Assembly: GCA_028285085.1 (NCBI GenBank)
Contig: JANQQI010000096.1
Coordinates: 1 to 36,806 of the forward strand
Source of the DNA: Saprospiraceae bacterium
Lineage (GTDB): Bacteria > Bacteroidota > Bacteroidia > Chitinophagales > Saprospiraceae
Reading direction: 5' to 3'
DNA length: 36,806 nucleotides
This document shows, in pieces, positions 8,716 through 31,351 of the stretch. The position numbers were made by a program, and so were the translations under genes. A model generated the notes under the pieces. That model saw only the letters and a list, made by a program, of their open reading frames with translations, did no database searches and was not told where the DNA came from. Positions within the stretch are counted from its first letter, which is position 1. Every line of letters starts with the position of its first letter.

Positions 8716-10338
8716 TTAGGTTTCGTTTCCTTTCAGGAAGTTCACACTGACTGTCGCCAGATCTGAATCCGGGAAACGGGCAAAATGCTCTGGATCATTG
8801 AATAAACCAACTTGGTTGAGCACTTTTTGAAACACCGGTAGCTCCACAATATACTGATCCGAATAACCGTGAGTGGCATCGTAAGCGGTAGCAGCGGTGC
8901 GTCCCAGATTTTGAGCCGTGAGACCGGGCGGAATGGTATGCAACTCAATCATCAGCAAGCCATGCTGCTCGACGTAAGGCTTCCAGGCCGCAAAGTGTTC
9001 GTGCAAATTGCGCTCGACGGCCGCATTGGGTAAGCGTCGCCCCGTCGAGGCAAAAGCCCCACTTGAACTACTTTCTGCCAAGGCAAAGTTACCTTTTGGA
9101 TCAGCCCAAATCCGATTGTGATCGAGAAAGGTGCGTACATTGAGTAAATCGCGCAAGTCAATATTATATTTTTCCCGTAAATCGGCCGCCAACAGATCGG
9201 GATCACTGATGTCTCCCCAGATGACCTTCGCCCAAATGTCAGCATTGATCAGATTAGTTCGCGTCACCTTCAGCGCAGCCTGATTATAATCGACTCCAAC
9301 CAAGAACAAAGGATACTCTTCTAGCATCTCCCCGCGCTTGGTCCGTTGTGCGATAACGTCAAACAGATGGATCAAAAAGGCTCCGTTACCGCAGCCCATG
9401 TCCAAAATGCCCCGCGGCTGCTCATCGATCGGTCGATTAAACAAGTCAATGATTACACGATCGATTTTTTTGAAATAGGCAGAATGCGCTCCACCGCTGC
9501 CCCAGACATTCATCTCTCGATCAACGTGTCGTTCGGGCTCGTTGACGCTCTCTGTTTTTAAATGCCGCGGATTGCCAAAAATTAGCTCATCCAGATTTCG
9601 AAAGGTCGGAATATAGCTAACCGTAACACCGTAGGCACTGGCCCGCTTTGCGAAGAACAAGCCTTTATCCGTGAAGCGATAGGTCTCTCCATTCTTCTCA
9701 AACCATTGTAGGAAAGTGAGGAAATCTAACAACTTGCTGAAGCTCTCGGGGTCCTTGTGGTACTCATCTGGCCGAAACGAGGCTTCCATGAAGTACTTAT
9801 GGAACATGCCTCCCATACCCAAATGAACGGTCGTTGGTCCTACCATAATACCTTCGATGTGGCGCTGCATTTGAATTTGGATATCGGCTGTCAGCTTGTC
9901 ATCCGTCGATTCAAATAGTGTCCCTTTTTGGTATTTGGCCATGATTTTCTCCAGCTTGCGAAAAGGCTCGATTTCAAACTTGCGCGGATGAAATTGGCCG
10001 GAGAATTGAATCAATTCGACGATATCCTGGTAGACGCCAGTTCGTGCAAAAGCAATTGAGCTTTTTTCATTTTGACTGACGCTGATTTGATCATTCGCAT
10101 TGTCCACTTCGTATGTCAGCCAGCCCTGCGCGGCCAGAATACGGAGCGCGACGTTGAGGTAACCTTCATTAGCAGAAAACTGCTCGCTCAATTGGCTTAA
10201 CGTTAGAGTAGGATGCTGCAGGATGGCATTCAACACGCCTTTTTTGTGTAAGGCGTAGGCAGTGGGTGCTACCGCAATGCCATCTAGATGTCGGAATAGT
10301 TCACTTCGGTATTGACGTTTATCTTCTCGGCTTAACAT
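8716..10338 (-). CDS. SAM-dependent class I methyltransferase with duplicated N-terminal module
   Basis: A 540-residue cytoplasmic protein. The C-terminal half carries a Rossmann methyltransferase: motif I ILDMGCGNGAFL (311-322) and motif II GVDYNQAAL (348-356), followed by VIWGDISDPD. The N-terminal half holds two related segments, each starting R-H-[LI]-[DE]-G-I-x-V-x-P-T, at residues 16-26 and 159-169. The first runs into a winged-helix-like stretch (LSQLSEQFSANEGYLNVALR), as in dimerising small-molecule methyltransferases. The layout is reminiscent of methyltransferases related to polyketide pathways (AprA-like), but no polyketide genes are present and I hold that comparison loosely. It is a lone gene, with 168 bases to the next gene downstream and a long non-coding region upstream. 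The substrate is unknown. Confidence 0.75.
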   Translation of the reverse strand: MLSREDKRQYRSELFRHLDGIAVAPTAYALHKKGVLNAILQHPTLTLSQLSEQFSANEGYLNVALRILAAQGWLTYEVDNANDQISVSQNEKSSIAFARTGVYQDIVELIQFSGQFHPRKFEIEPFRKLEKIMAKYQKGTLFESTDDKLTADIQIQMQRHIEGIMVGPTTVHLGMGGMFHKYFMEASFRPDEYHKDPESFSKLLDFLTFLQWFEKNGETYRFTDKGLFFAKRASAYGVTVSYIPTFRNLDELIFGNPRHLKTESVNEPERHVDREMNVWGSGGAHSAYFKKIDRVIIDLFNRPIDEQPRGILDMGCGNGAFLIHLFDVIAQRTKRGEMLEEYPLFLVGVDYNQAALKVTRTNLINADIWAKVIWGDISDPDLLAADLREKYNIDLRDLLNVRTFLDHNRIWADPKGNFALAESSSSGAFASTGRRLPNAAVERNLHEHFAAWKPYVEQHGLLMIELHTIPPGLTAQNLGRTAATAYDATHGYSDQYIVELPVFQKVLNQVGLFNDPEHFARFPDSDLATVSVNFLKGNET

Positions 10339-10583: not shown

Positions 10584-10863
10584 AGATGATATTCGTAGGT
10601 CCTATAGAATCTGATTTGATATCATTTCATTTCACAGCTCAGACAAATTTTCCACTGACAGAAATTTAGACGTGTCTAGTCGATCATTTCCTTCCTTTTG
10701 GATTGATCACCAAAGTTTCTGCTACTGCAGTGGTAAGAAGCCCTGGCATTGAACTGTACCATCTTGGTGGCTACTGTAAACTGAAATGTGTTTACAGCGC
10801 CCAGCCAATGCTTTGTCCAATGCCAACCAAAACCATTTTTTAACGACCTTAAATTGGATTAAA

Positions 10864-11544
10864 ATGAAAAAGTTAAGTCTTGGATTCCTCTCTCTTCTAG
10901 CAATTACTTTATTGATTTATGCCTGTTCAAAAGATGAGGCAGTAACCACTCAACAGGAGGAAAGTCGTTTTGAATTAGTGAGTCCTAATGATCTGGTTCT
11001 TGCGGATTCGGATGCTGAACTCAAAAGTATGATGGCCGCAGTATTGCTGGAAAATCACAATTATCGGGATGCGTTTACCGTCAAAAATGTCACCTACACT
11101 GTGCTGGACGATATTACTTACGCTGATATTCGTTTTACGCTTCCGGCCGGTAATCAGAAGAATATGATTTTCTATTGGTTGATGTCAACCGAAAATGTAG
11201 ACGGTGCGAGTCAGCGTGATCCTCTATTAATAAATATAGATCCACTACCGGCTCCGACTTGTACCGGCTTGTGTTTTGTCGGAGAAGATTGTGTCGCAGT
11301 TTACGATTTGAATATCAAGAGTTTCGTTTGTGAATGTGGCAATCAGAATGACAACAACTGCACTCTTACCGTAGGTGGCGATGGTGGAACCAGCATTACT
11401 TGTACGGGTAATTGTGATGATGGCGCGGCTTGCGAAGCGGCCTATAAGCCTGCTACCAATCAGATTTATTGCCGCTGTGATGATGGCTCTCACTCTAATT
11501 GTACGCCAGTCATCACCGAACAAGAATTGCCTTTCGGCGATTAA
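10864..11544 (+). CDS. Lipoprotein with twin six-cysteine modules
   Basis: A 226-residue protein. The start at 10864 begins MKKLSLGFLSLLAITLLIYA followed by C21, a good lipobox (IYAC), so it should be a lipoprotein. The middle (~residues 25-130) is an unfamiliar domain with no cysteine. The C-terminal third holds two 35-residue modules at residues 133-167 and 180-214. Both have cysteines at relative positions 1, 5, 11, 24, 26 and 34 and share CTGxC, a Tyr at 15 and NCT at the end. I do not recognise the family. The even cysteine count and exported location suggest three disulfides per module. It is followed by a strong terminator at 11578-11614 and so is probably a single-gene transcript. Confidence 0.75.
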   Translation: MKKLSLGFLSLLAITLLIYACSKDEAVTTQQEESRFELVSPNDLVLADSDAELKSMMAAVLLENHNYRDAFTVKNVTYTVLDDITYADIRFTLPAGNQKNMIFYWLMSTENVDGASQRDPLLINIDPLPAPTCTGLCFVGEDCVAVYDLNIKSFVCECGNQNDNNCTLTVGGDGGTSITCTGNCDDGAACEAAYKPATNQIYCRCDDGSHSNCTPVITEQELPFGD

Positions 11545-18057: not shown

Positions 18058-19455
18058 CTATAAATGAATGACTTCACCGTAAGCGGCAGCGGTTGCTTCC
18101 ATCACCGCTTCGCTCATCGTAGGGTGGGGGTGAACTGCTTTGATGATCTCGTGTCCCGTTGTTTCGAGTTTACGAGCCGCTACTACTTCGGCAATCATCT
18201 CCGTCACATTGGAACCAATCATGTGGGCACCAAGCCATTCGCCGTATTTTGCGTCAAAAATAACTTTTACAAAGCCGTTTTTCTCGCCAGCGGCACTCGC
18301 CTTACCCGATGCAGAGAATGGGAATTTACCAACTTTGATCTCATATCCGGCTTCTTTTGCTCCGGCTTCAGTATAGCCAACTGAGGCAATCTCCGGGATG
18401 CAATAAGTACAGCCAGGGATATTGTTATAATCAATTGGTTCAACGTCGTGACCGGCAATTTTTTCAGCGCAAAGCACACCTTCGGCGGTAGCAACGTGGG
18501 CCAACGCAGGTCCTGGTACGACGTCACCGATAGCATAAATGCCCGGTACGTTCGTCTGATAGTACTCGTTGACTTTGATCAGGCCACGCTCAGTTGCAAT
18601 GCCCAAGGCCTCCAAACCAATATTTTCGGTATTCGGTACGACGCCGGCCGCAGAAAGGACCACATCGCATTTGATCTCGCTCGTTTTTCCGTCTTTACGA
18701 TTCTTGGTTTTGACGACACAACCACGTCCTTTGGTCTCTACCTCTTCTACTGAGGTGTTAGCCAAAACTTCGATGCCCGATTTTTTAAACACCTTCGTCA
18801 ATTCTTTTGAAACGTCCACATCTTCGCGTGGCACGAGGCCTTGCTCCATAAACTCTACGATAGTCACTTTGGTACCAATCGAGTTATAGAAATAAGCGAA
18901 CTCTACGCCAATAGCACCAGCCCCAACGACAACCATTGATTTAGGTTGTTTTTCCATACTCATAGCCTTGCGGTATTCGATGATCTTTTTACCATCGATG
19001 GGTAGATTCGGTAATTCGCGTGCTCGACCGCCCGTCGCAATGATGATATGATTGGCTGAGTAAGTAGTCGTTTTGCCATCTGCATCGGTGACTTCCACTT
19101 GCTTGCCTCTTGCCAGTTTACCGTGGCCTTCCAGCACTGTAATTTTATTTTTACGCATCAAGAAGCTGATACCTTTGCTCATCCCGTCAGCTACACCACG
19201 ACTACGACTGATCATGCCATCAAAATCGGCAGTAGCTTTACTCACCTTGATCCCATAGTCTTCTGCGTGATTGATATAGTTGAAAACCTGAGCACTTTTT
19301 AATAGTGCTTTGGTAGGGATACATCCCCAGTTGAGGCAAATGCCACCAAGTTTTTCCCGTTCAACCACAGCGACTTTCATCCCTAATTGAGAAGCACGAA
19401 TAGCGGCAGGGTATCCTCCGGGACCACTGCCAATAACGATAAGATCAAAATTCAT
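18058..19455 (-). CDS. lpdA: Dihydrolipoamide dehydrogenase (E3)
   Basis: A 465-residue FAD/NAD flavoenzyme that reoxidises lipoamide in the pyruvate and 2-oxoglutarate dehydrogenase complexes and the glycine cleavage system. Visible landmarks: N-terminal FAD site VIGSGPGGYPAAIRA (residues 7-21), redox-active disulfide C40/C45 in GGICLNWGCIPTK, NAD site VVVGAGAIGVEFAYF, second FAD segment YAIGDVVPG, and the C-terminal dimer-interface catalytic His in AVHPHPTMSEAV. The length is normal for the family. It is a lone gene here, with its own promoter and terminator; no E1 or E2 genes are in the window. Confidence 0.97.
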   Translation of the reverse strand: MNFDLIVIGSGPGGYPAAIRASQLGMKVAVVEREKLGGICLNWGCIPTKALLKSAQVFNYINHAEDYGIKVSKATADFDGMISRSRGVADGMSKGISFLMRKNKITVLEGHGKLARGKQVEVTDADGKTTTYSANHIIIATGGRARELPNLPIDGKKIIEYRKAMSMEKQPKSMVVVGAGAIGVEFAYFYNSIGTKVTIVEFMEQGLVPREDVDVSKELTKVFKKSGIEVLANTSVEEVETKGRGCVVKTKNRKDGKTSEIKCDVVLSAAGVVPNTENIGLEALGIATERGLIKVNEYYQTNVPGIYAIGDVVPGPALAHVATAEGVLCAEKIAGHDVEPIDYNNIPGCTYCIPEIASVGYTEAGAKEAGYEIKVGKFPFSASGKASAAGEKNGFVKVIFDAKYGEWLGAHMIGSNVTEMIAEVVAARKLETTGHEIIKAVHPHPTMSEAVMEATAAAYGEVIHL

Positions 19456-19633: not shown

Positions 19634-19705
19634 TTTTCCTGCACTCCAATTTCCCAAACATACGGATCACTGGAATAGTTGTCTGCAAATGCTATCTTTA
19701 GCGCT

Positions 19706-22243
19706 ATGGAGTGTTTCCCTTATTTGTTTGCTCGAATCAGTGGCTTACCAGCACACCTACCACAACAATGGTCAAAGCGGAATACCAACTGGTTGCAGCT
19801 ATATCTAAGGTTCGTGCAGGATATGGCTACCGAACGATCAGAAGTTATTGATGCTTTGGATCATCTGATTCGAGGTAATAAGGATTATCAACTCAAACAG
19901 CTACTGATACACATTAGGCGGGATATTTATAATTATCGTACGTTCAAATGGCGCCACCTCTCGGAGAAGCCAGCATTGCAACCACTTTTAAGCACTCTCG
20001 AAAAATACCAAAAACGTTTTCAGGACCGTAAAGATCACCGATCAGCGTACCTGACAGCGTACGAAAATAGCCTAACCGAAGATCGGCGAGAGCTACAGAT
20101 TTTGGTCAAGGAACCAGCATTGCTCAAGGGACTACAAATGGCGAGTCAATCTCTGCTCCAACGTGTTGTCCAATACCGAGAGGCTCGGCCTGATCAAATG
20201 AACAAAAAACGGCGACAAACGGAGAAAAGCTTGCTTAAATATTTGAGCCGGATCGCCTTAAAAACATCTCCTTTTAGTCATTTTACCACACTGGGGGCCA
20301 CACAAGGGCAACAGGTGCTTGGGGTGAAGTCAGGACAAGTTTTGCTCAATAATCACTTGTTTGGCTTACTCCGAGACGTCTTGCAGCGGTACGCACCATT
20401 TGCCCATCAGCTACCGTTGCAACTCAATCCGACCCTAGAACGACACGAGGAAAAATACGTTTATCTGCTAAATGCACGCAACGTTGAGTCCTTTCAAGAA
20501 TCACCAAAAGATGCACTATTTGAATTTATTATTGAGTGTTTTAATAATTTAAAATCAATCCTTTATCCCGATTTAGTTAAGAAAATACTTGAAGTCGTTG
20601 ATGCTGAAGAAGCACAAATAAGTGGACTTATAACAGAACTGGTTGACTACGGCTTTTTGCAATTTAAATGGCCCTTTAGCGCTTTGGATACAAGCTGGCC
20701 TACATTAATGTCCGAAAGACTTAGTTTGGAAGATCAACATCTGACTGCTTTACGAGAGACTTTGTTAGAAATGTCTCCTCACCGTTTCCAGTTTTCTAAC
20801 TTGAGCTTAGAGCAACGAGCCCAGTTGCAGATGGATTGGTTTCAGCGATTGAAAGCGGCAATTGAACCACTCTTGCAGCTCACGGGCTTAGCCGAATCAC
20901 AGCAGGAGGTAAATCTTGAACAGCTAAAATATTACCGGAGTGCTCATTTCGCCTTTCAGCCCGAAAAGCTTTTTTATGAGGATTGTGGAAGCACGGAATT
21001 TGTACCGCCATCAACCGAGCTAAAGACTCAAATCGCCGGTGAATTAAATCGATTGGTTGATATTCTACAGCCTTTGTATTTTAATCGGCATCGAAGTCAG
21101 GTTCTACAATTCTTCAAGTCTAGCTATGCATTGGATAGTCAAATAGGATTGCTGGATTTCTACCGGGCCTATTATCAGAACAACGGGCAAATTGAGCCTG
21201 TGGTCCCCGCCTTGATCAAGCGGCGTACGGTCTGGCGTGACCAATTGTTGGAGCAGGCAAAAACGCCTGATCATCAAACCATTCGATTGGACTGGGAGGA
21301 TTTCATGGACTTACCCGGCGCAAGTGACGTATCAGGGCGTAGCCACCCATTCCGGGCGGCGCTCTGCCAGTTTGGTCAAACTGAGTCCGTTTGGTGGGCA
21401 TTCTGCGAACATACCTTTCCCGGCTATGGCAAGATGGCCGGGCGCTTTTTCAGTTTATTTCCAGATGAAGTTTTACGGACTCAGCTGGAATGGAACCAAG
21501 CCTGCCAAAAGAACGATACCCTCTGGGCAGAAAATCTCGATGCTTCGCTTTACAATCCTAATGTGCATCCTAACTTCACGCCCTTTGAAATCAGTATGCC
21601 GGGAAGCCAGAATCGACTTCCTGTAACACAGCAGTTGCCCGTCGGCGAGCTTACTATCCGCTATCACGCTGCTCAAGATCGACTTGAGCTTATTCGTCCA
21701 TCGGATCAAAAGGAGGTAGTCATTTTTGACTTGGGCTTTGAGGCCCCAGAAAGTCGCAGTCCTTTGTTTCGCATGTTGAATACGTTTAGCTATACCATGA
21801 CCAGCCCGGAAATATTGGTCAAACTACTCAATGAAGTATTGCTTCAAGAACACGAAGACGGCTGGCGACGGCAGTACAGGATACAAATCGGAGATCACCT
21901 GATCATCCAACGCGAGGGATGGTGGATACCCAAAGCGGTTTTACCACAAGTTGAGGCCGGCGAACTAGCGGCTGATTACTTCTTGCGTCTGCAAAGCTGG
22001 CAATCTATGCACGGCCTCCCGGATCAATGTTTCCTGAGTCTAACGCCTTCAGCGGCACCTAACTCGAAACAACTGCCTGCTGATGCCTATAAACCACAAT
22101 ATTTTGATTTTTCTGCTCCGATTCTCTTGCCTTTATGGCGGCAGCTACTCGGGCAAGTCGATACCTATCTGAAAATTGAGGAATACTTACCCCTGCCAAC
22201 GGAACAAAACACTACCGAGTATCTATTGCAATGGAAGGTATAA
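19706..22243 (+). CDS. LanB-type lantibiotic dehydratase, glutamylation-type domain only (split LanB or PEARL candidate)
   Basis: An 845-residue cytoplasmic protein from ATG 19706 (MECFPYLFARISGLPAHLPQ). An in-frame TTG at 19679 would add nine residues, but the ATG fits the family N-terminus better. Landmarks of the Lant_dehydr_N family, in order: S181-R-I-A-L-K-T-S-P-F-S191 (the conserved KTSPFS box), EKLFYEDCGSTEF near 420, FFKSSYALDSQIGLLDFY at 469-486 (the family's FxxxYG...LLDFY block), and the closing GLPDQCFLSL then FDFSAPILLPLW segment near 770-820, which normally ends this domain. The protein stops there, so the ~300-residue SpaB_C elimination domain is absent. Known relatives use glutamyl- or other aminoacyl-tRNA to modify a peptide. 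No LanC, elimination partner, protease, transporter or obvious precursor is nearby. Substrate and amino acid are unknown. Confidence 0.82.
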   Translation: MECFPYLFARISGLPAHLPQQWSKRNTNWLQLYLRFVQDMATERSEVIDALDHLIRGNKDYQLKQLLIHIRRDIYNYRTFKWRHLSEKPALQPLLSTLEKYQKRFQDRKDHRSAYLTAYENSLTEDRRELQILVKEPALLKGLQMASQSLLQRVVQYREARPDQMNKKRRQTEKSLLKYLSRIALKTSPFSHFTTLGATQGQQVLGVKSGQVLLNNHLFGLLRDVLQRYAPFAHQLPLQLNPTLERHEEKYVYLLNARNVESFQESPKDALFEFIIECFNNLKSILYPDLVKKILEVVDAEEAQISGLITELVDYGFLQFKWPFSALDTSWPTLMSERLSLEDQHLTALRETLLEMSPHRFQFSNLSLEQRAQLQMDWFQRLKAAIEPLLQLTGLAESQQEVNLEQLKYYRSAHFAFQPEKLFYEDCGSTEFVPPSTELKTQIAGELNRLVDILQPLYFNRHRSQVLQFFKSSYALDSQIGLLDFYRAYYQNNGQIEPVVPALIKRRTVWRDQLLEQAKTPDHQTIRLDWEDFMDLPGASDVSGRSHPFRAALCQFGQTESVWWAFCEHTFPGYGKMAGRFFSLFPDEVLRTQLEWNQACQKNDTLWAENLDASLYNPNVHPNFTPFEISMPGSQNRLPVTQQLPVGELTIRYHAAQDRLELIRPSDQKEVVIFDLGFEAPESRSPLFRMLNTFSYTMTSPEILVKLLNEVLLQEHEDGWRRQYRIQIGDHLIIQREGWWIPKAVLPQVEAGELAADYFLRLQSWQSMHGLPDQCFLSLTPSAAPNSKQLPADAYKPQYFDFSAPILLPLWRQLLGQVDTYLKIEEYLPLPTEQNTTEYLLQWKV

Positions 22244-22396: not shown

Positions 22397-22786
22397 ATGG
22401 CTACCAAGAATGCAATTTATATCAATGATCTACACTTTGAACACGTCAATTGGATGAAAGAACTTCGCTTTTGGGAGGATGAAATTGTCACATATCAACA
22501 CCGCCTCGAAGAGTTGGTTCAGCGTTGGACAGATCGGGATGTACTAGCAAAACTCGAACATTTCCAAAACCAATTTATTCTGCACAGTGAAAAAATGGAT
22601 CAATTGAAGCACGATGTCAATCAACACGAAAGTGAGCTGGCAAATTATGCCAAAGAACACCCCGTAGCTATTAATCGTGTCCATTTTGTAGATCACGGTG
22701 GTTTGCGTGACCGCATGCGTATTCAGCGGAGATTAATTGCTGAATTGAAAGAAGAGTTCTATGGTTTTTTAGCAAAATTCATGTGA
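22397..22786 (+). CDS. Small coiled-coil protein of unknown function
   Basis: A 129-residue, charged, soluble protein without signal peptide or membrane segment. Most of it is predicted helical, with heptad-like spacing (WMKELRFWEDEIVTYQHRLE, KLEHFQNQFILHSEKMDQLK, RMRIQRRLIAELKEEFYGFL), so a coiled-coil bundle is likely. It has no Cys and few Ser, which argues against a lanthipeptide precursor. From memory, similar stand-alone proteins occur in other Bacteroidota away from LanB genes, so the pairing here may be accidental. It has its own likely promoter upstream and a strong terminator downstream. Confidence 0.75.
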   Translation: MATKNAIYINDLHFEHVNWMKELRFWEDEIVTYQHRLEELVQRWTDRDVLAKLEHFQNQFILHSEKMDQLKHDVNQHESELANYAKEHPVAINRVHFVDHGGLRDRMRIQRRLIAELKEEFYGFLAKFM

Positions 22787-23029: not shown

Positions 23030-26000
23030 ATGAAAATAAACCAGCACTGTATGCACAGAACTGTCTACAACTTCTTCACTCTTCGCGTTTTTATTTACAT
23101 TATTTTTTTATTGCCAGGGCTAAATGTTTTTGCTCAGGATTGCACTGAGGTCCAATCGTATCGGCAGGTTCTCAATACCCATGATTATTGCGGTGATTGG
23201 TGCGCTGATACGGATTACGTTTTCACGCTGGGACAAGATAATTGCTATGTCGCAGGCGATGATTTGACGTTTATCGAGTACCACGATGGCACCGCGACTC
23301 TAGAAGGATCGGTAATTCAAGATGGAAATGTCGGGCAAGTATCGGTGACCTTTTCGGATCGAACGAGTGTCGCACCGGATGGAAGTCCAAAATACATGCT
23401 ATGTATTAGCAGCGGTGGAGAGGATTGGTATTACTATCCTACCTTTACCGGTACGTTTACTTATCCGAATGGAACAACTACAACTATAACGCGGAAAGGG
23501 CCAGCTTTTCAAATCGGTTATGGAGCCAACTTACAGGATAGTGAGTATGGGGGAAGTGGCTGGTTTTATACTAGTGATGGCGGGGAAGGTGATTTTAATT
23601 TTCAATTAGCGGATTCCATTTTTTGTACAGAAAATGACTACTACCTGGACGTAGAATGTGCGGAAGTAGGGAGCGATTTCAACTTTGTTTTAGATGAAAA
23701 TGCTGCTGGTGGTGCTTATGTAACGGTGCAAGATGGGAATAATGCTTATGCAAGTGCTCCCAGTGGAATCAATAGCCGCGTACGGTTTAATTTGACAGTT
23801 TCTCAGAGTGGGGACTATTATATTTTTGCTCGGGTACAAGCACCGAGTAGCAATGATGACAGTTTTTGGGTACGTGTAAATGACGGTAATTGGGTCAAGT
23901 GGAATCAAATTGCATCTTCTGATAGTTTTATTTGGGATCAAGTACATGATAATAATAATGCCAATACGCCGGTAGCTTTTCCATTAACCGCCGGGTTCAA
24001 TACGATTGATTTTGCTTACCGTGAAGATGGTACTTTACTGGATAAGATTTTTGTGTCTCTCAATAATCAAGCCCCCATCGGAGGTGGCTTTGATGCAATC
24101 AATTGTGCTGAAAGCGAATGTATTGGTGGTTTAAATATTACAGTTGAACAGGCCGTATGCACTGGTGACACGTCAATGGTTACCGTTGAAGTAGTCGGAG
24201 GTACAGCACCTTACACTTATGCTTGGAGTCATGGCCCAACTACTGCTGTCGTGGGAGATTTAGAAGCAGGGATTTATGGGGTAACCGTGACTGATGCGGC
24301 GGGATGTAGCTGGATCGCCGAAGTTCAAATTGATGCAGTTATTGATTTGGAGGTCATATGTACCGTAAGTCAAGGCTGCCCTGGTGAAGGTAATGCCTAC
24401 ATTGTAGCTGAAGTGACCGGTGGCCAGGGCGGTTATCAATACCATTGGAGTAATACCGCTTGTGATTACTATATTGATGGTCTGAGTCCAGGGATATACT
24501 CACTAACGGTCGTTGATGGAAGTGGTTGTACCGCTACCTGCAGTGCAACGATCATCGATCCGGAGCCCATAATTGTAGATTGTCAGGCCAGTTTACCTTG
24601 TGACGGTGATGGTACCGGTACTTTAACTGGACAAGTGAGTGGTGGAACACCTCCATATCAATATGCCTGGAGTACACTAGCTGAAACGGAAACCGTCAGT
24701 GGCGTTGCTCCCGGAACGTACAGCCTAACCATTACGGATGGGAATGACTGTACCGCTTCTTGTAGCGTGGTTTTAGAACCATCTGATCCCATCATCGTAA
24801 CGGTGAGTGCCCCTCCCGGTGACTGTATTGGGCAAAACACAAGTGCGACGCCTTTTGTAGTGGGTGGAACACCTCCGTACACTTACCTTTGGAGTAATGG
24901 CGCCACGAGTGCAACGATTGAAAATATCTTGCCTGGAACGTATATCCTCACGGTGACTGACGCCGACAATTGTACCGGAATGTGTACCGCTATCGTCGAA
25001 GGCCCAGATCCGATTGAGCTGACTTGCTCCGCTACTGCTACGGATTGTACGGGGAATAGTGGTGGAACAGCTGCTGTAGCAGCAACTGGTGGTAACGGGA
25101 ATTACACCTACCAATGGAGCAACGGAGCAAGTAGTGCTAATTTAACGGACATTGCTGGAGGTATTTACACAGTTACGGTTACTGATGGAAATGCGTGTAC
25201 CGCAGTTTGCGAAGTGACCGTTGAAGTCCCCGCCCAATTAGAGATAGAAACATTAGTCGTACAACCGATTTGTACTGGTGGTAGCGGAAGTGTCGGAACG
25301 ACAATTATAGGTGGAACAGCACCTTATACCTATCAGTGGAGTAATGGTGCCACCACCAGTTCGGTAACTGGCTTAGCAGCCGGTAATTATGATCTTACCG
25401 TAACGGACGCTAATGGCTGCGTAGCTACCGCAAGTATAGTAATTGAAATGCCGGCAACGATCGAAGTGATTTGTAACAGTACTGATGCTAGCTGTGTTGA
25501 TAATAGTGATGGCAGCATTATGCTGCAAGTGACCGGCGGCACAGGAGCCTACACCTATGAGTGGAGTAACGGCGCCACGACGGATAATCTTTTTGATTTA
25601 TTGAGTGGAAATTATTCTGTGACTGTAACGGATATCAATGGCTGTAGCGCAATTTGTGAAGCTTTGGTGAATGCCCCGATTGGCATGGAAGTGCTGATGA
25701 CAAGTGCTCAACCTGACTGCGCCGGTGGAGTTGGCGCGATTACCGTTGAGGTTAGTGATGGAACAGCGCCATTTAGCTATGTTTGGAATAACGGCGCCAC
25801 TACCGCTACTTTGGATAACCTCTCAGAAGGGAGTTACAGTCTATCCGTAACTGATGCTGCCGGATGTACGGCAATGGCTTCGGCTTCGATTGAAGCGCCA
25901 GCTGCATTACAACTATCATGTACTCCTAGCCAACCTAGTTGTGTCGGGGCAAGTGATGGAGGTATTACTACACAAGCCACTGGTGGTACGGGCAGTTATA

Positions 26001-29000
26001 CTTATGCTTGGAACACCGGCGCAACGACAGCCTCTCTAACCAATCTTTTGTCCGATACTTATAGTTTGACCGTGACGGATGAAAATGGTTGTAGTGCAGT
26101 TTGTTCTACCACGATTACCAACCCTGAAGCTTTGGTTTTGAGCTGCTCGGCTAATCAGCCAGATTGTGGCTCACCTAACAGCGGAAGCGTGGTATTGGAA
26201 ATCAACGGTGGCACAGCGCCTTATACTTATCTCTGGAATACTGGTGCTACCACACAAAATATTGATCTGCTCTCGGAGGGAATTTACAGTGTAACGGTCA
26301 CTGATGCAAATGGCTGTTCTACTACTTGTAGTACCATGCTAGAAGCAACTTCTTCAATGAGTATTGCCACGGTTCCTACGCACTTAGTTTGTGGGGTTGA
26401 GCAGAACGGTACCGTCGATCTGACGGTTACAGGTGGTTCGACACCTTATGCGTTCAACTGGAGCAATGGTGCGACCACGGAAGATTTACAAGATTTAGCG
26501 GCGGGTGATTTTGCGGTAACGGTGACGGATGCTAACGGTTGTACGGCGGCATCAATCACTACGGTTCAATCTCCACCGGAGCTCATTGTGATTAGTAGTG
26601 CAACTGTCTTAGATTGTTTTGGCGCGTCTAATGCTACAGCTTACGTCGACGTAGTTGGTGGTATTCCGCCTTACGTTTATTTGTGGGCAACCGGTGATAC
26701 GACCGAGGTTGTGGAAGCAGTGGGAGAGGGTGTCTATGGTGTAACGGTGACGGATGCCACTGGTTGTACTGGTGTTTGTACCGCTTATATTGACAATCCT
26801 GAGGAGCTAGTTGTAGAAAGTATGCCAACTGCTGTTAACTGTTCTGGAGAAACAAATGGAGCAATCAGTGCTTTCGCGAATGGTGGCAGTGGTAGCTATA
26901 CCTACTTATGGAACACTGGTGCCATTATCCCGGAATTGAATAACCTTGCGGCGGGTGAATATACGCTGACCGTTACCGACGGGAATGGCTGTGAAGTGAT
27001 TAGTACGACCACTTTGGTTGATCCAGCACCTGTAACCATTGAATTATTAGCTGAAGAGCCAGCTTGTGCAAGTGATTTGGGTGGAACTATTGAAGCTTTA
27101 GCACAAGGTGGTACCGGTGAATTAAGTTACACTTGGAATAATGGAATGACGACACCTAATCTGTCTGATCTTGGGGCGGGTAACTATAGTCTTACTGTAT
27201 CAGATGCAAATGGCTGTTTTAGCGTCAAATCAATTAGCATAAGCGAACCCGTAGCCTTGAGTGCTTCCTGCATCCCAGTAGATTTAGAGTGTGCTGAGCC
27301 AAATACCGGCCAGGTTGATCTTACCGTTAGTGGAGGAACCGGCGCTTATACTTTTGCGTGGAACAATGGAGCAAGCACGGAAGACTTATCAGCGGTTGAT
27401 GCAGGTAATTACGAAGTAACGGTGACCGATGCTAATGGCTGTTCAGTGATTGCTGGTGCAAGTGTTATTTCGGCGGCACCACTACAAGTCATTTGTACTG
27501 CAAATGATCTGGATTGCGGCCAACCCAATACCGGCAGTGTCTCTTTGGATGTCAGTGGTGGAGTAGGTAATTATACATATGCTTGGAATAATGGTGCTAC
27601 AACCGCGTTTTTGACAGGACTGGGCACAGGAACATACACGGTCACTGTGACCGATAGTAATAATTGTACGACCACCTGCAGCACAGAGGTGAAAGCAACG
27701 ACACCAGTTGCGGTGAACTGTACGGCTGTTGATCAGCAGTGTGGGATTCCATTTTCCGGTAATATCAGTATTTCTGTTTCTGGAGGTGATGGCGCTTATA
27801 CTTACAACTGGAGTAATGGAACATCTAATGCTAACTTATCGAATGTTGAGCCTGGTACCTACAGCGTCACTGTAACAGACGGCAATGGTTGTACCACAAG
27901 TTGTTCCGCGGCGGTCTCAGCTACTACGGATGTAGAAGCGAGCTGTGAAGCGCGCCCACTAGATTGTGGCCAAGCAAATACGGGTAGCATTGATCTGACC
28001 GTGAGTGGTGGTAATGGGACCTACAATTTCCTTTGGAGCAACGGCGCGAATACGGAGGACTTAGAAGGCTTGGGTGCTGGGTTATACTCCGTCACTGTTT
28101 TTGATACCAATGGTTGTGTAGCCATCTGCAATTCGGTGGTAACCACTGCGGGAATTTTGGAAGTTACACTTGATACCGATAACATTTACTGCGGTGTGCC
28201 GAATACAGGCGTCATCAACGCAGAAGTGAACAACGGAACACCACCTTACACCTACGCTTGGAGCAACGGTGCTGATACCCAAAAGCTGACAGATTTGGCT
28301 GCAGGTACTTATACGCTGACGGTGACGGATGCCAATGGCTGTATTGTGGTTGCCAGCTCAACGGTAGAATCTACTCTGGGCTTGAATGTGAGTTGTACTG
28401 CTGCCGATACCCAATGTGGAGAGGAAGACACCGGAGGTGTTGACTTGACGGTAACGGGAGGCACAGGTATTTATTCTTTCCAATGGAGCAACGGTGCCAT
28501 CACAGAAGATCTTAGCAATGTGGGCTCCGGCACCTACGCCGTAACGGTAACGGATGACAATGGCTGTAGTGGCGTATGTATTAGTACCGTCGCTAGCTCT
28601 GATCCGCTTACCGCCGATTGTGAATCGATTCAATTACAATGTGGTGAGCCTAATACCGGAGAAATTGATCTTACTGTTGGTGGCGGCTCGGGTGAATATT
28701 CCTTTGAATGGAATAATGGCGAGACCACCGAAGATTTAGTCAACATTGGTCCTGGATCATACGAAGTGACGGTGACGGATGCCAATGGCTGTACCACAAC
28801 TTGTTCAACCAGTATTTCTGAATCGAATGCCATGAGTGTGAGTTGTGTGCCGTCGAGTTTACAGTGCCGCAATGATAACTCAGGGAGTATAGATGTGACG
28901 CCTAATGGAGGTGATGCACCGTATACCTACGCTTGGAGTAATGGCATGACGACTGAGGATATTAGTAACCTAGCGGCTGGAAACTACACGGTAACCGTGA

Positions 29001-31351
29001 CAGATGCCAATGGTTGTACCAGTACCTGTTCTGCAAACGTAACCCAACCCGGTTACCTGATTGGAATTAGTTCTTCAAATAATATTAGCTGTAACGGCGC
29101 AAATGATGGTTCAGCCTTCGTCACTACGATCGGTGGTACTTCTCCTTATACTTATGCCTGGAATACCGGGGCAACGACGCTCTTTATCGGTGGCCTAAGT
29201 GTGGGCACTTACACGGTGACGATTACCGATGCTAACGGTTGTAATACGATCTCATCCACTTCAATCACGGAACCGTCTCCTTTGCTGGCCGAGTGCGTCG
29301 CCCAAAATAATAGCTGTGATACCAGTGGTGGAGGAGTTAATTTGGCCATCAGCGGTGGAACGGCACCATTTGAATTCTTATGGAGCAACGGGCAGGGCAC
29401 CCAAAATCTAACTGGCTTATCATCTGGTACTTACAGTGTAACGGTGACGGATGCCAATGGATGTAGTGCAGTTTGTTCTACCACTTTGGATATTAATGAG
29501 CCTTTAGCGATCGACTTAGTTGCTAGTGATTTGGTGTGTGGTGATAATAATTCGGGTAGTATTGATCTAACACCGAGTGGTGGTTCGGGGACCTATTTTT
29601 ATCAGTGGAGTCACGGGCCGCAAACTCAGGATGTATCCAACCTCAGCGCGGGTAGCTATGATGTGACTCTGTTTGATGATAATGGTTGTAATCAAACGGC
29701 AACGATCGAAGTGATACCGGCTCCGGCCTTAACTATAGTTGTGGACGCCCAAGATGTTGATTGTCGTGGTAATGCGAGTGGAAGTGCAACCGCAAATGTA
29801 GTGGAAGCGGGTGGGCCATATACTTTTGTCTGGAGTAGTGGTGATACTACTAAAACGGCTAATGGTTTGGCTGCGGGTAACTACGGCGTGACCGTGACGG
29901 ATATCGATGGATGTTTTGGCACCGCAACAGTAACGATTGATGAACCAGGTCATCTGATTGCGGTAAGTTCAGGGACACCAATTTCGTGTTTTGGAGACAC
30001 CGATGGTACCGCTTTCGTCACAGCTTTTGGAGGAACGCCACCTTATCAATATAACTGGAATAATGGCTCGACTTCCATCTTCCTCAATGCTTTGGTCGCC
30101 GGCAATTATGAAGTCACGGTGACCGATGCTAATGGTTGCCAAACGATCAGCAGCACGACGGTTGAATCACCGGATTTATTAACGGTAGGTTGTAATGCCG
30201 TACAGCCAGATTGCAGTGGCATTACTCAAGGAAGCATTTCTCTAAATGTTAACGGTGGAACGGCGCCTTATAGTTACTTGTGGAATAATGGTGGGATCAC
30301 CCCGGAACAAGCAGGATTATCCGCCGGGGAATATTCGGTAACGGTGACCGATGCTAATGGCTGCTCGACTACCTGCTCCACAACTATCCAACAACCAGGT
30401 AATCTAAGTGTAACCTGCCTAGCGGATAATATTGATTGTGCTGGCGGCCTGGCTGATATCATCATCGTAGATATTACCGAAGGCTTACAGCCTTATACTT
30501 ACGAATGGTCAGATGGTTCTACGGATCCGATTTTGACCAATGTACCGGAAGGGGTATACAGTGTGACCGTGACGGACGCCTTAGGTTGTAAAGCGAGTTG
30601 TAGTACAACTGTGGTGGAGCCTGAACCATTAATTGCGACCTACGGAGCGACTCCTGTAAGCTGTCATGGCGATAATGACGGTACGGCATCCGCTCAAGCA
30701 TCTGGAGGAACACCGCCATACCAGTACAGCTGGACGACGGGGGGAACAACGTCTACATTGACCGATCTTGCACCTGGCGCTTATGGTTTGACGATTACCG
30801 ATGCTAATGGTTGTGAGTTTATCTGTGGTATGCGAGTTGGAGAGCCTGAGCCGTTGACTTGTTCGGTGAATGTTATTCAGGAAGGCTCCGGGACTTCAAC
30901 ACAACTTGAGGTGTTGGCAGAAGGTGGTACCGCTCCTTATCTATACAGTGTAGATGCTGGGCAGACCTTTACTGCTAGTAATTGGTTCGACGCACTGACG
31001 CCGGGTATTTATACCATAGTCTCTGAAGATGCCAATGGTTGTCAATCCGTCTGCGATACGGTCACGATTTACGAAAATCTGGGAGGCGAGGCCGACCAAA
31101 ATCAAAAACTATTACTTTCTCCGGTTCCTGTAAAGGAGGAAGTGACCGTAACTTATGATGTCAAAGTTTCCGGTGAAGCTATAATTACCCTGCAAAACTT
31201 AAATGGAAAGGGGATTTATCGCACCGTTCAATATGCAGAGAACGGCGATAATCGATTACAGATCAATACCACTGATTTGCCAAGTGGTAGTTATGTAATT
31301 GCCATTGTCACTGCTAGTGGTGTAATGACCAAGCAGTTCTATAAAGATTAA
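23030..31351 (+). CDS. Giant secreted SprB-repeat protein with carbohydrate-binding-like domain and T9SS sorting domain
   Basis: 2773 residues. The N-terminus has a hydrophobic signal segment (FFTLRVFIYIIFLLPGLNVF, then AQ); an ATG at 23051 would shorten a long n-region. Residues ~36-205 form a Cys/Tyr-rich beta domain I do not recognise. Residues ~215-350 resemble a CBM6-type sugar-binding fold (SRVRFNLTVSQSGDYYIFAR, FWVRVNDGNWVKW, GFNTIDFAYREDG, LDKIFVS). Residues 368-2686 are 31 tandem SprB-type repeats of ~75 residues. The last ~85 residues are a T9SS sorting domain (LLLSPVPVKEEVTVTYDV to SGVMTKQFYKD). SprB-type proteins of Flavobacterium johnsoniae are surface filaments used in gliding; adhesin or gliding function here is inference. 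It is flanked by terminators at 22826 and 31376, so it is a single-gene transcript. Confidence 0.92.
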   Translation: MKINQHCMHRTVYNFFTLRVFIYIIFLLPGLNVFAQDCTEVQSYRQVLNTHDYCGDWCADTDYVFTLGQDNCYVAGDDLTFIEYHDGTATLEGSVIQDGNVGQVSVTFSDRTSVAPDGSPKYMLCISSGGEDWYYYPTFTGTFTYPNGTTTTITRKGPAFQIGYGANLQDSEYGGSGWFYTSDGGEGDFNFQLADSIFCTENDYYLDVECAEVGSDFNFVLDENAAGGAYVTVQDGNNAYASAPSGINSRVRFNLTVSQSGDYYIFARVQAPSSNDDSFWVRVNDGNWVKWNQIASSDSFIWDQVHDNNNANTPVAFPLTAGFNTIDFAYREDGTLLDKIFVSLNNQAPIGGGFDAINCAESECIGGLNITVEQAVCTGDTSMVTVEVVGGTAPYTYAWSHGPTTAVVGDLEAGIYGVTVTDAAGCSWIAEVQIDAVIDLEVICTVSQGCPGEGNAYIVAEVTGGQGGYQYHWSNTACDYYIDGLSPGIYSLTVVDGSGCTATCSATIIDPEPIIVDCQASLPCDGDGTGTLTGQVSGGTPPYQYAWSTLAETETVSGVAPGTYSLTITDGNDCTASCSVVLEPSDPIIVTVSAPPGDCIGQNTSATPFVVGGTPPYTYLWSNGATSATIENILPGTYILTVTDADNCTGMCTAIVEGPDPIELTCSATATDCTGNSGGTAAVAATGGNGNYTYQWSNGASSANLTDIAGGIYTVTVTDGNACTAVCEVTVEVPAQLEIETLVVQPICTGGSGSVGTTIIGGTAPYTYQWSNGATTSSVTGLAAGNYDLTVTDANGCVATASIVIEMPATIEVICNSTDASCVDNSDGSIMLQVTGGTGAYTYEWSNGATTDNLFDLLSGNYSVTVTDINGCSAICEALVNAPIGMEVLMTSAQPDCAGGVGAITVEVSDGTAPFSYVWNNGATTATLDNLSEGSYSLSVTDAAGCTAMASASIEAPAALQLSCTPSQPSCVGASDGGITTQATGGTGSYTYAWNTGATTASLTNLLSDTYSLTVTDENGCSAVCSTTITNPEALVLSCSANQPDCGSPNSGSVVLEINGGTAPYTYLWNTGATTQNIDLLSEGIYSVTVTDANGCSTTCSTMLEATSSMSIATVPTHLVCGVEQNGTVDLTVTGGSTPYAFNWSNGATTEDLQDLAAGDFAVTVTDANGCTAASITTVQSPPELIVISSATVLDCFGASNATAYVDVVGGIPPYVYLWATGDTTEVVEAVGEGVYGVTVTDATGCTGVCTAYIDNPEELVVESMPTAVNCSGETNGAISAFANGGSGSYTYLWNTGAIIPELNNLAAGEYTLTVTDGNGCEVISTTTLVDPAPVTIELLAEEPACASDLGGTIEALAQGGTGELSYTWNNGMTTPNLSDLGAGNYSLTVSDANGCFSVKSISISEPVALSASCIPVDLECAEPNTGQVDLTVSGGTGAYTFAWNNGASTEDLSAVDAGNYEVTVTDANGCSVIAGASVISAAPLQVICTANDLDCGQPNTGSVSLDVSGGVGNYTYAWNNGATTAFLTGLGTGTYTVTVTDSNNCTTTCSTEVKATTPVAVNCTAVDQQCGIPFSGNISISVSGGDGAYTYNWSNGTSNANLSNVEPGTYSVTVTDGNGCTTSCSAAVSATTDVEASCEARPLDCGQANTGSIDLTVSGGNGTYNFLWSNGANTEDLEGLGAGLYSVTVFDTNGCVAICNSVVTTAGILEVTLDTDNIYCGVPNTGVINAEVNNGTPPYTYAWSNGADTQKLTDLAAGTYTLTVTDANGCIVVASSTVESTLGLNVSCTAADTQCGEEDTGGVDLTVTGGTGIYSFQWSNGAITEDLSNVGSGTYAVTVTDDNGCSGVCISTVASSDPLTADCESIQLQCGEPNTGEIDLTVGGGSGEYSFEWNNGETTEDLVNIGPGSYEVTVTDANGCTTTCSTSISESNAMSVSCVPSSLQCRNDNSGSIDVTPNGGDAPYTYAWSNGMTTEDISNLAAGNYTVTVTDANGCTSTCSANVTQPGYLIGISSSNNISCNGANDGSAFVTTIGGTSPYTYAWNTGATTLFIGGLSVGTYTVTITDANGCNTISSTSITEPSPLLAECVAQNNSCDTSGGGVNLAISGGTAPFEFLWSNGQGTQNLTGLSSGTYSVTVTDANGCSAVCSTTLDINEPLAIDLVASDLVCGDNNSGSIDLTPSGGSGTYFYQWSHGPQTQDVSNLSAGSYDVTLFDDNGCNQTATIEVIPAPALTIVVDAQDVDCRGNASGSATANVVEAGGPYTFVWSSGDTTKTANGLAAGNYGVTVTDIDGCFGTATVTIDEPGHLIAVSSGTPISCFGDTDGTAFVTAFGGTPPYQYNWNNGSTSIFLNALVAGNYEVTVTDANGCQTISSTTVESPDLLTVGCNAVQPDCSGITQGSISLNVNGGTAPYSYLWNNGGITPEQAGLSAGEYSVTVTDANGCSTTCSTTIQQPGNLSVTCLADNIDCAGGLADIIIVDITEGLQPYTYEWSDGSTDPILTNVPEGVYSVTVTDALGCKASCSTTVVEPEPLIATYGATPVSCHGDNDGTASAQASGGTPPYQYSWTTGGTTSTLTDLAPGAYGLTITDANGCEFICGMRVGEPEPLTCSVNVIQEGSGTSTQLEVLAEGGTAPYLYSVDAGQTFTASNWFDALTPGIYTIVSEDANGCQSVCDTVTIYENLGGEADQNQKLLLSPVPVKEEVTVTYDVKVSGEAIITLQNLNGKGIYRTVQYAENGDNRLQINTTDLPSGSYVIAIVTASGVMTKQFYKD
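24131..31087 (+). repeat. Array of 31 SprB-type repeats (about 225 bases each) within the giant gene
   Basis: Each unit has the plan C-x6/7-C ... GG-x-x-PYTYxWSNGATT ... L-x-x-G-x-Y-x-VTVTDANGC-x3-C. Thirty units are full copies. The 31st is of the other SprB subtype (PYLYSVDAGQTFTASNWFDAL), lacking the W-[SN]-[NT]-G core. Units 15-22 form a more uniform block with NTG and DLTVSGG in their first half, implying more recent expansion there. Most units carry two Cys near the start and two near the end, so disulfides within or between units are likely. DNA around VTVTDANGC is nearly identical in many units, while other codons diverge. Confidence 0.92.

Follow-up and report, generated by a model that had tools for sequence, protein, structure and literature searches.

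Why should a contig of a Saprospiraceae bacterium carry the glutamylation half of a lanthipeptide dehydratase with neither the elimination half nor a substrate beside it? The window analyzed here is the whole of contig C138 (JANQQI010000096.1; 36,806 bases), one of 140 contigs in a genome of 7.47 Mb, and the gene in question encodes a stand-alone LanB glutamylation-domain protein (LanB_N). An earlier note, which had only the window to go on, took the gene for an orphan, a PEARL-like enzyme (peptide aminoacyl-tRNA ligase) or a new tRNA-dependent one. We suggest instead, with a probability of about three in four, that LanB_N is the glutamylation subunit of a split pinensin-type LanB, that it works in trans with an elimination (SpaB_C) protein encoded on contig C30, and that the two act on unlinked peptides with a double-glycine (GG) leader to give linear dehydropeptides. 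This would be unusual: genes of this kind are as a rule clustered, and their products are antibiotics with sulfur bridges.

The argument draws on the following parts of the gene, numbered in amino acids (aa) from the ATG:

19706..22243, plus strand: LanB glutamylation-domain protein, 845 aa from ATG, assigned by its PF04738 match, TbtB profile match and tree position
20249..20251, plus strand: codon of the YLSRI arginine, Arg182, which all 13 rows of alignment A1 share
20261..20278, plus strand: KTSPFS motif, residues 186-191, which lines up with KTSPYS of TbtB
21911..21913, plus strand: codon of Arg736, at profile column 741, which pairs with the adenine-contacting Arg743 of TbtB; invariant in A1
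22031..22033, plus strand: codon of Phe776, at profile column 781, counterpart of TbtB Phe783
22217..22225, plus strand: codons of Glu838-Tyr-Leu840; Glu838, at profile column 850, is the counterpart of TbtB Glu851

Two starts are possible for the open reading frame (ORF), a TTG that gives 19679-22243 and the ATG that gives 19706-22243, and the ATG position is the start in most aligned homologs. The Pfam domain Lant_dehydr_N (PF04738) was matched at 66.9 bits (cut-off 28; E 1.4e-18) over residues 145-786 of 854, and no SpaB_C domain (PF14028) was found by the Pfam scan, so that the glutamylation domain stands on a polypeptide of its own, as in a split LanB. The earlier description of a Lant_dehydr_N-type protein that ends without SpaB_C is thereby borne out, and the three motifs on which it drew, KTSPFS, GLLDFY and GLPDQCFLSL, are all present in the translation. 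Alignment A1 holds 13 of the 16 homologs found in the family, the window protein included (G095, cut by a contig end, and G009 and G011, weak or partial, were omitted). The window protein is 22-33% identical to the other rows and retains the invariant residues. A profile alignment with a chain offset of +3 showed that the Arg, Phe and Glu of the TbtB adenine site are all retained, as Arg736, Phe776 and Glu838. Judged by the Y-x2-R motif, Arg182 is likely the counterpart of Arg208 in the PEARL BhaBC-Trp, a residue that binds CCA according to PMC11962472. Loss of the tRNA-binding residues, by which the earlier note would have recognized a dead paralog, is not what we find: the aligned tRNA- and adenine-site residues are kept, the protein is not an evident dead paralog, and we rejected that candidate on the retention of the invariant residues of A1.

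Only two solved structures were returned at E <= 0.01 by the 13-row profile, TbtB (6EC7; E 6.4e-52) and the goadsporin biosynthetic protein 9JHQ. A 100/100 branch of the LanB_N tree has 16 split proteins, among them the one from the pinensin-type cluster of genome G251, on one side and six classical LanB N-domains on the other; several branches in this tree are long, and where these join should be read with caution. Like the PEARLs (TglB, AmmB, BhaB), the window protein is LanB glutamylation-like, has no fused SpaB_C and has the Y-x2-R motif of the CCA-binding helix; unlike them, it co-occurs with SpaB_C and has a Leu in place of the PEARL-specific Arg803. According to PMC11117183, TglB, a PEARL, has Arg803 at the position two residues past the conserved Glu, where split LanBs have Leu. 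That position is Leu840 in the window protein, and it is non-Arg in all 13 rows of A1. The split LanBs of the thiopeptide and goadsporin systems, which we take to be TbtB/TbtC and GodF/GodG, are alike in that TbtB and 9JHQ are the best solved structures and the adenine-site Arg, Phe and Glu are kept, and unlike in that the leader of the window system is of pinensin type and its genes are unlinked. On sequence grounds we read the window protein as a probable glutamylation subunit of a split LanB of pinensin type, not as a PEARL.

A separate partner was found in the same genome. This genome encodes two further Lant_dehydr_N proteins, both full LanBs (ORFs of 1040 and 1072 aa), for a total of three, and it has three SpaB_C regions, two of which belong to the full LanBs and the third to a stand-alone protein on contig C30 (361 aa; PF14028 at 141 bits; four of four elimination residues). 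The neighbor of the C30 gene is presumably dnaK, a name given by eye, as fmt is, and SpaB_C lies beside dnaK in 7/19 family loci. Of 100 family genomes, 16 have a homolog of the window protein and 19 a stand-alone SpaB_C, defined as an ORF under 400 aa; both occur in 14, LanB_N only in two, SpaB_C only in five (G035, G046, G061, G072, G091) and neither in 79 (Fisher p 2.8e-11, counts uncorrected for phylogeny). Synteny was also seen. A SpaB_C gene beside LanB_N in relatives, which the earlier note would have taken to refute its reading, is found in part of them: the two adjoin in 3/14 two-gene family genomes (G020, G071, G038) and lie on different contigs in the other 11; among 198 genomes of the same order, full-length LanB_N occurs outside the family in G109 and G251, with SpaB_C directly downstream in both (the G109 contig ends inside SpaB_C); and in the Acidobacteriota metagenome-assembled genome JASJCB010000038.1, LanB_N, SpaB_C and LanC stand in a row.

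The state of the elimination residues also follows the presence of LanB_N. We take these residues to be Arg784, Arg786, Arg826 and His961 of NisB. No text on their roles was found in the accessible part of PMC7296275. The four aligned positions were tabulated for 21 SpaB_C proteins, the row of G009 being very divergent. All four are kept in 15 of the 16 rows from genomes with LanB_N, and three in the remaining one (G040); of the five rows without LanB_N, G035 has all four left, G046 has none, and a single one survives in each of G072, G091 and G061. His961 alone, within the family, is kept in 14/14 with LanB_N versus 1/5 without (p 1.3e-3). The deep forks of the SpaB_C tree are unresolved, and its G009 branch is very long; three changes on this tree account for the five SpaB_Cs from genomes that lack LanB_N, and a single origin of the loss is also compatible with it. 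Alignment A2 comprises 16 of the 19 family SpaB_Cs; G009, G046 and G061 entered only the residue table. The loss of catalytic residues in genomes that lack LanB_N offers a natural test of pairing in trans. The residue-losing ORFs themselves (L105, L106, L068, L069) are kept in four LanB_N-less genomes, two of them beside dnaK, and are possible pseudoenzymes.

Candidate substrates came from a comparison with G251, which has a complete pinensin-type cluster: a C39 transporter, LanB_N, SpaB_C, a LanC-like protein (LanM model TIGR03897 at 213.6 bits, under the cut-off of 304) and a precursor that matches the pinensin leader model NF038180 (leader_pinensin) at 39.7 bits (cut-off 24). This model scored above cut-off in 15/40 chosen genomes, namely 14 of the 18 with LanB_N (16 of the family, G109 and G251) and one (G035) of 22 others, these being the five SpaB_C-only genomes and 17 hand-picked ones with neither gene. 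Within the family the counts are 12/16 versus 1/22 (p 7.5e-6, uncorrected for phylogeny), and among 14 named control genomes a match at E <= 1 was seen in four and a match above cut-off in none. The genome of the window has two such peptides, type A on C133 (45.1 bits) and type B on C109 (28.5 bits), so the earlier suggestion of a substrate encoded elsewhere is probably right. The orphan status proposed for the gene survives only for its own contig, on which neither a SpaB_C nor a precursor-family match is listed; a partner and candidate substrates are encoded elsewhere in the genome, invisible to that note.

While the precursors of G020, G109 and G251 carry 2 to 13 Cys, those elsewhere form two peptide families that are Cys-free in 18/20. 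The leader of type A (13 genomes, counting G035 and G066) is pinensin-like and ends in GG; the core after it is 33-56 residues long, contains [WF]T in 13/13 and has one Cys in 2/13. The type A gene is convergent with that of a neighbor of about 510 aa in 12/13 loci; in the genome of the window this neighbor has 512 aa, is TPR-like (weak TPR matches) and is 44-67% identical to the 11 others. A LytTR-like gene is near in 11/13 loci and a recX-like gene in 7/13. Type B, present in 7 genomes, has 36-39 aa (in one case the start may lie further up), and its core after GG is YTWVG in 6/7 and FTWIS in 1/7. Mean identity among type B peptides is 48% in the leaders and 88% in GG plus core, and the core codons differ synonymously. 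Genes for a pyridoxal-phosphate enzyme and HlyIII are near in 5/6 and 4/6 compared type B loci, respectively (the seventh, L230, was outside the comparison). Type A and B neighbors were assigned with Pfam on single examples and with BLAST for the remainder. The recurrence of the SpaB_C-dnaK siting and of the sites of both peptide types suggests that the system is vertically inherited. The literature searched contained no mention of YTWVG and no paper that joins Saprospiraceae to a lanthipeptide.

A genome-wide search for LanC (PF05147), which covered the family LanB_N genomes and not G109 or G251, gave no match in 12/16. The matches were in G000, G020, G049 and G066, near a pinensin-type LanB_N only in G020. 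In the genome of the window, LanC genes lie beside full LanBs on C23 and C68, and a further one lies on C126 (L136:9208-12607) beside genes for a HopA1-family protein and an APH-type kinase, a set we take to be class V-like lanthipeptide genes. As to export, an HlyD-like gene is upstream of LanB_N in 9/14 family loci read (two of the nine cut by a contig end), and in six of those nine it is preceded by a C39-peptidase ATP-binding cassette (ABC) transporter gene, assigned by Pfam on one example. Just upstream of LanB_N in G078 lies a 66-aa ORF (L037:8657-8857) that resembles part of a C39 transporter and is perhaps a transporter remnant.

The chemistry, the pairing in trans, the export and any role would then run as follows. 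The window LanB_N would glutamylate Thr after an aromatic residue in a glutamyl-tRNA-dependent manner, and the unlinked SpaB_C of C30 would eliminate the glutamate to leave dehydrobutyrine (Dhb) from Thr, or dehydroalanine from Ser. The predicted substrates are the C133 peptide (type A, with [WF]T, neighbored by a LytTR regulator and the 512-aa TPR-like protein) and the C109 peptide (type B, leader-GG-YTWVG). Cleavage of the leader after GG and export of the product would fall to a C39-peptidase ABC transporter paired with an HlyD protein. Lanthionine cannot arise within a core that lacks Cys, and the product is therefore predicted from the Cys-free cores (2/20 have one) and the absence of a detected LanC in most genomes to be a linear dehydropeptide, not a lanthipeptide, and perhaps an endogenous signal. 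Goadsporin is a precedent for dehydration without LanC. Linaridins are linear peptides with dehydrobutyrine, as the products of the window system would be, and are made by different enzymes. The best reading of the sequences is a dispersed, vertically kept system that would make linear dehydrobutyrine peptides, which are perhaps signals.

The pinensin-type lanthipeptide system reportedly comprises a split LanB, LanC and a GG-leader precursor. The pinensin work of Mohr et al. 2015 is cited in PMC7268733. Like that system, ours has a split LanB and an NF038180 leader, and the window LanB_N groups with the G251 cluster protein. Unlike it, the parts in the genome of the window are scattered over different contigs (C138, C30, C133 and C109), and its type A and B cores are Cys-free with no linked LanC.

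Several observations weigh against a split LanB acting in trans on these peptides. LanB_N, SpaB_C and the precursors are unlinked in the genome of the window, the first two being at least about 21 kb apart even were their contigs abutting, so that the case for pairing in trans is made by co-occurrence and by those genomes in which the genes are linked. Two genomes, G068 and G095, have LanB_N and no SpaB_C; in both, the contig that carries LanB_N is shorter than 5 kb. The pinensin leader model missed four LanB_N genomes, G009, G038, G078 and G066 (G066 has a sub-threshold peptide of 20.6 bits beside the type A neighbor protein), and 17 of the genomes compared with them were picked by hand. G035 has a precursor and an intact SpaB_C, yet LanB_N was undetected there, and in G040 the KTSPFS box is changed to RPTPLG and one SpaB_C residue is changed while the type A peptide is kept. 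Being short, the [WF]T motif could be a chance recurrence. Neither the HlyD-like nor the C39 gene is in the window, and we did not locate the transporter on which the system would rely in this genome. The same genome also has LanC genes and other GG-leader peptides, which makes other substrates possible.

This last point leads to the alternative that survives best, though we consider it unlikely: a true split LanB that acts on other GG-leader peptides, such as two class I precursors on C88, with a lanthipeptide closed by LanC as product. The two C88 peptides match lant_leader_L1a (about 31 bits), at least one has a Cys-bearing core, no LanB is in the 20 kb read alongside, and the genome has four LanC matches. 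However, lant_leader_L1a, which we rejected as a general substrate, is above cut-off in 1/100 family genomes, whereas pinensin-leader peptides track LanB_N; LanC is undetected in most LanB_N genomes, and the precursor linked to LanB_N in G251 is of pinensin type. GG peptides of the TIGR04149 type, also rejected, reached E <= 0.1 in 9/31 genomes and the cut-off in one, with no clear tie to LanB_N. The C88 precursors themselves, of class I lanthipeptide type, lie at a contig end (L049:2-519), about 1 kb from a gene for a 517-aa protein whose alignment with the TPR-like neighbor of type A shows 16% identity. Orphan GG-leader peptides are also convergent with 487- and 489-aa proteins without a Pfam match (L139:6082-7710 and L142:8327-9968), so that pairs of a peptide and a protein near 500 aa recur.

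We regard as very unlikely that the system is a decaying remnant in a family that formerly made a pinensin-type lanthipeptide and is now losing the parts. The 12 genomes without detected LanC, the degenerate parts in G040, G046, G061, G072 and G091 and the short C39-like fragment near LanB_N of G078 would fit such decay, but the window ORF is intact, its invariant residues are kept at 22-33% identity, and the type B core is the same five residues in 6/7 genomes, with synonymous codon change. We give hardly any credence to a different SpaB_C reaction, for example a pyridine-forming cyclization like that of TbtD, with LanB_N working alone or with the SpaB_C of a full LanB. In its favor, the solved relatives of the SpaB_C alignment include TbtD and TsrE, and the C30 protein scores 62.4 bits with NF045556 (TbtD_PbtD), although the cut-off of that model, 325, is far higher; against this, all four NisB-aligned residues are present, and thiazoles would require Cys, which is absent from both the type A and the type B core of this genome. 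The PEARL-like reading of the earlier note, by which an amino acid from aminoacyl-tRNA is added to a peptide C-terminus using ATP, could appeal to the missing SpaB_C and local cluster and to short peptides with a conserved C-terminus (YTWVG) as thinkable scaffolds, but we reject it as scarcely credible given the missing Arg803-type Arg in 13/13 rows, the stand-alone elimination protein in 14/16 family genomes with the gene, the SpaB_C that adjoins a homolog in six genomes, and a LanC-like gene directly next in G251 and the Acidobacteriota genome and a few kb off in G020.

Within our preferred reading of a split pinensin-type LanB, the LytTR and TPR-like neighbors suggest a signaling role. That the system serves core-genome signaling and not antibiosis, with a two-protein, tRNA-dependent dehydratase that turns Cys-free peptides into linear dehydrobutyrine signals, the conserved mature pentapeptide Tyr-Dhb-Trp-Val-Gly as one product and type A sensed via the TPR-like and LytTR proteins, is a tentative proposal that we would sooner doubt than accept. 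If true, a lanthipeptide-type enzyme would have been recruited for core-genome signaling, and the conserved YTWVG core and the type A neighbors make such a role directly testable. Genome mining usually takes it for granted that the genes are clustered and that a LanB system has LanC and a core with Cys; all three assumptions seem to fail here at once, and such systems would therefore be missed.

The surroundings of the gene in the window are largely as the earlier note described them. Searches of the genome with PF14028, PF05147, NF038153, TIGR04149 and NF038180 list no match on contig C138, in keeping with its statement that no SpaB_C, LanC or precursor is nearby. A peptidase-transporter, of which it saw none either, is absent among the 17 window ORFs scanned with Pfam, some ORFs being outside the scan, such as one of 252 aa at 10786-11544. 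No azole genes were seen beside the window gene, and no search aimed at YcaO was made. The conserved short peptide for which it proposed to look beside the gene in relatives did not turn up, as no recurring small ORF within 4 kb of LanB_N was seen by eye at 14/16 family loci (G009 and G011 omitted), and a 129-aa ORF at 22397-22786, next to LanB_N, is without counterpart among the compared LanB_N loci. The contig of the G038 split LanB has an ORF made mostly of CSRDQEDVAEE repeats (L040:80-667). On the left the window gene has a housekeeping neighbor:

18058..19455, minus strand: dihydrolipoyl dehydrogenase, given as context; also near the LanB_N homolog of G016 and G066, in another arrangement

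To the right, window positions 23030-31351 encode a 2773-aa protein with 27 SprB-repeat stretches and a type IX secretion system sorting tail, and surface-protein neighborhood is thus a fair label. Further left, at 8716-10338, is a gene whose product combines an AprA-type N-terminal domain with a winged-helix and an MT2-like methyltransferase domain.

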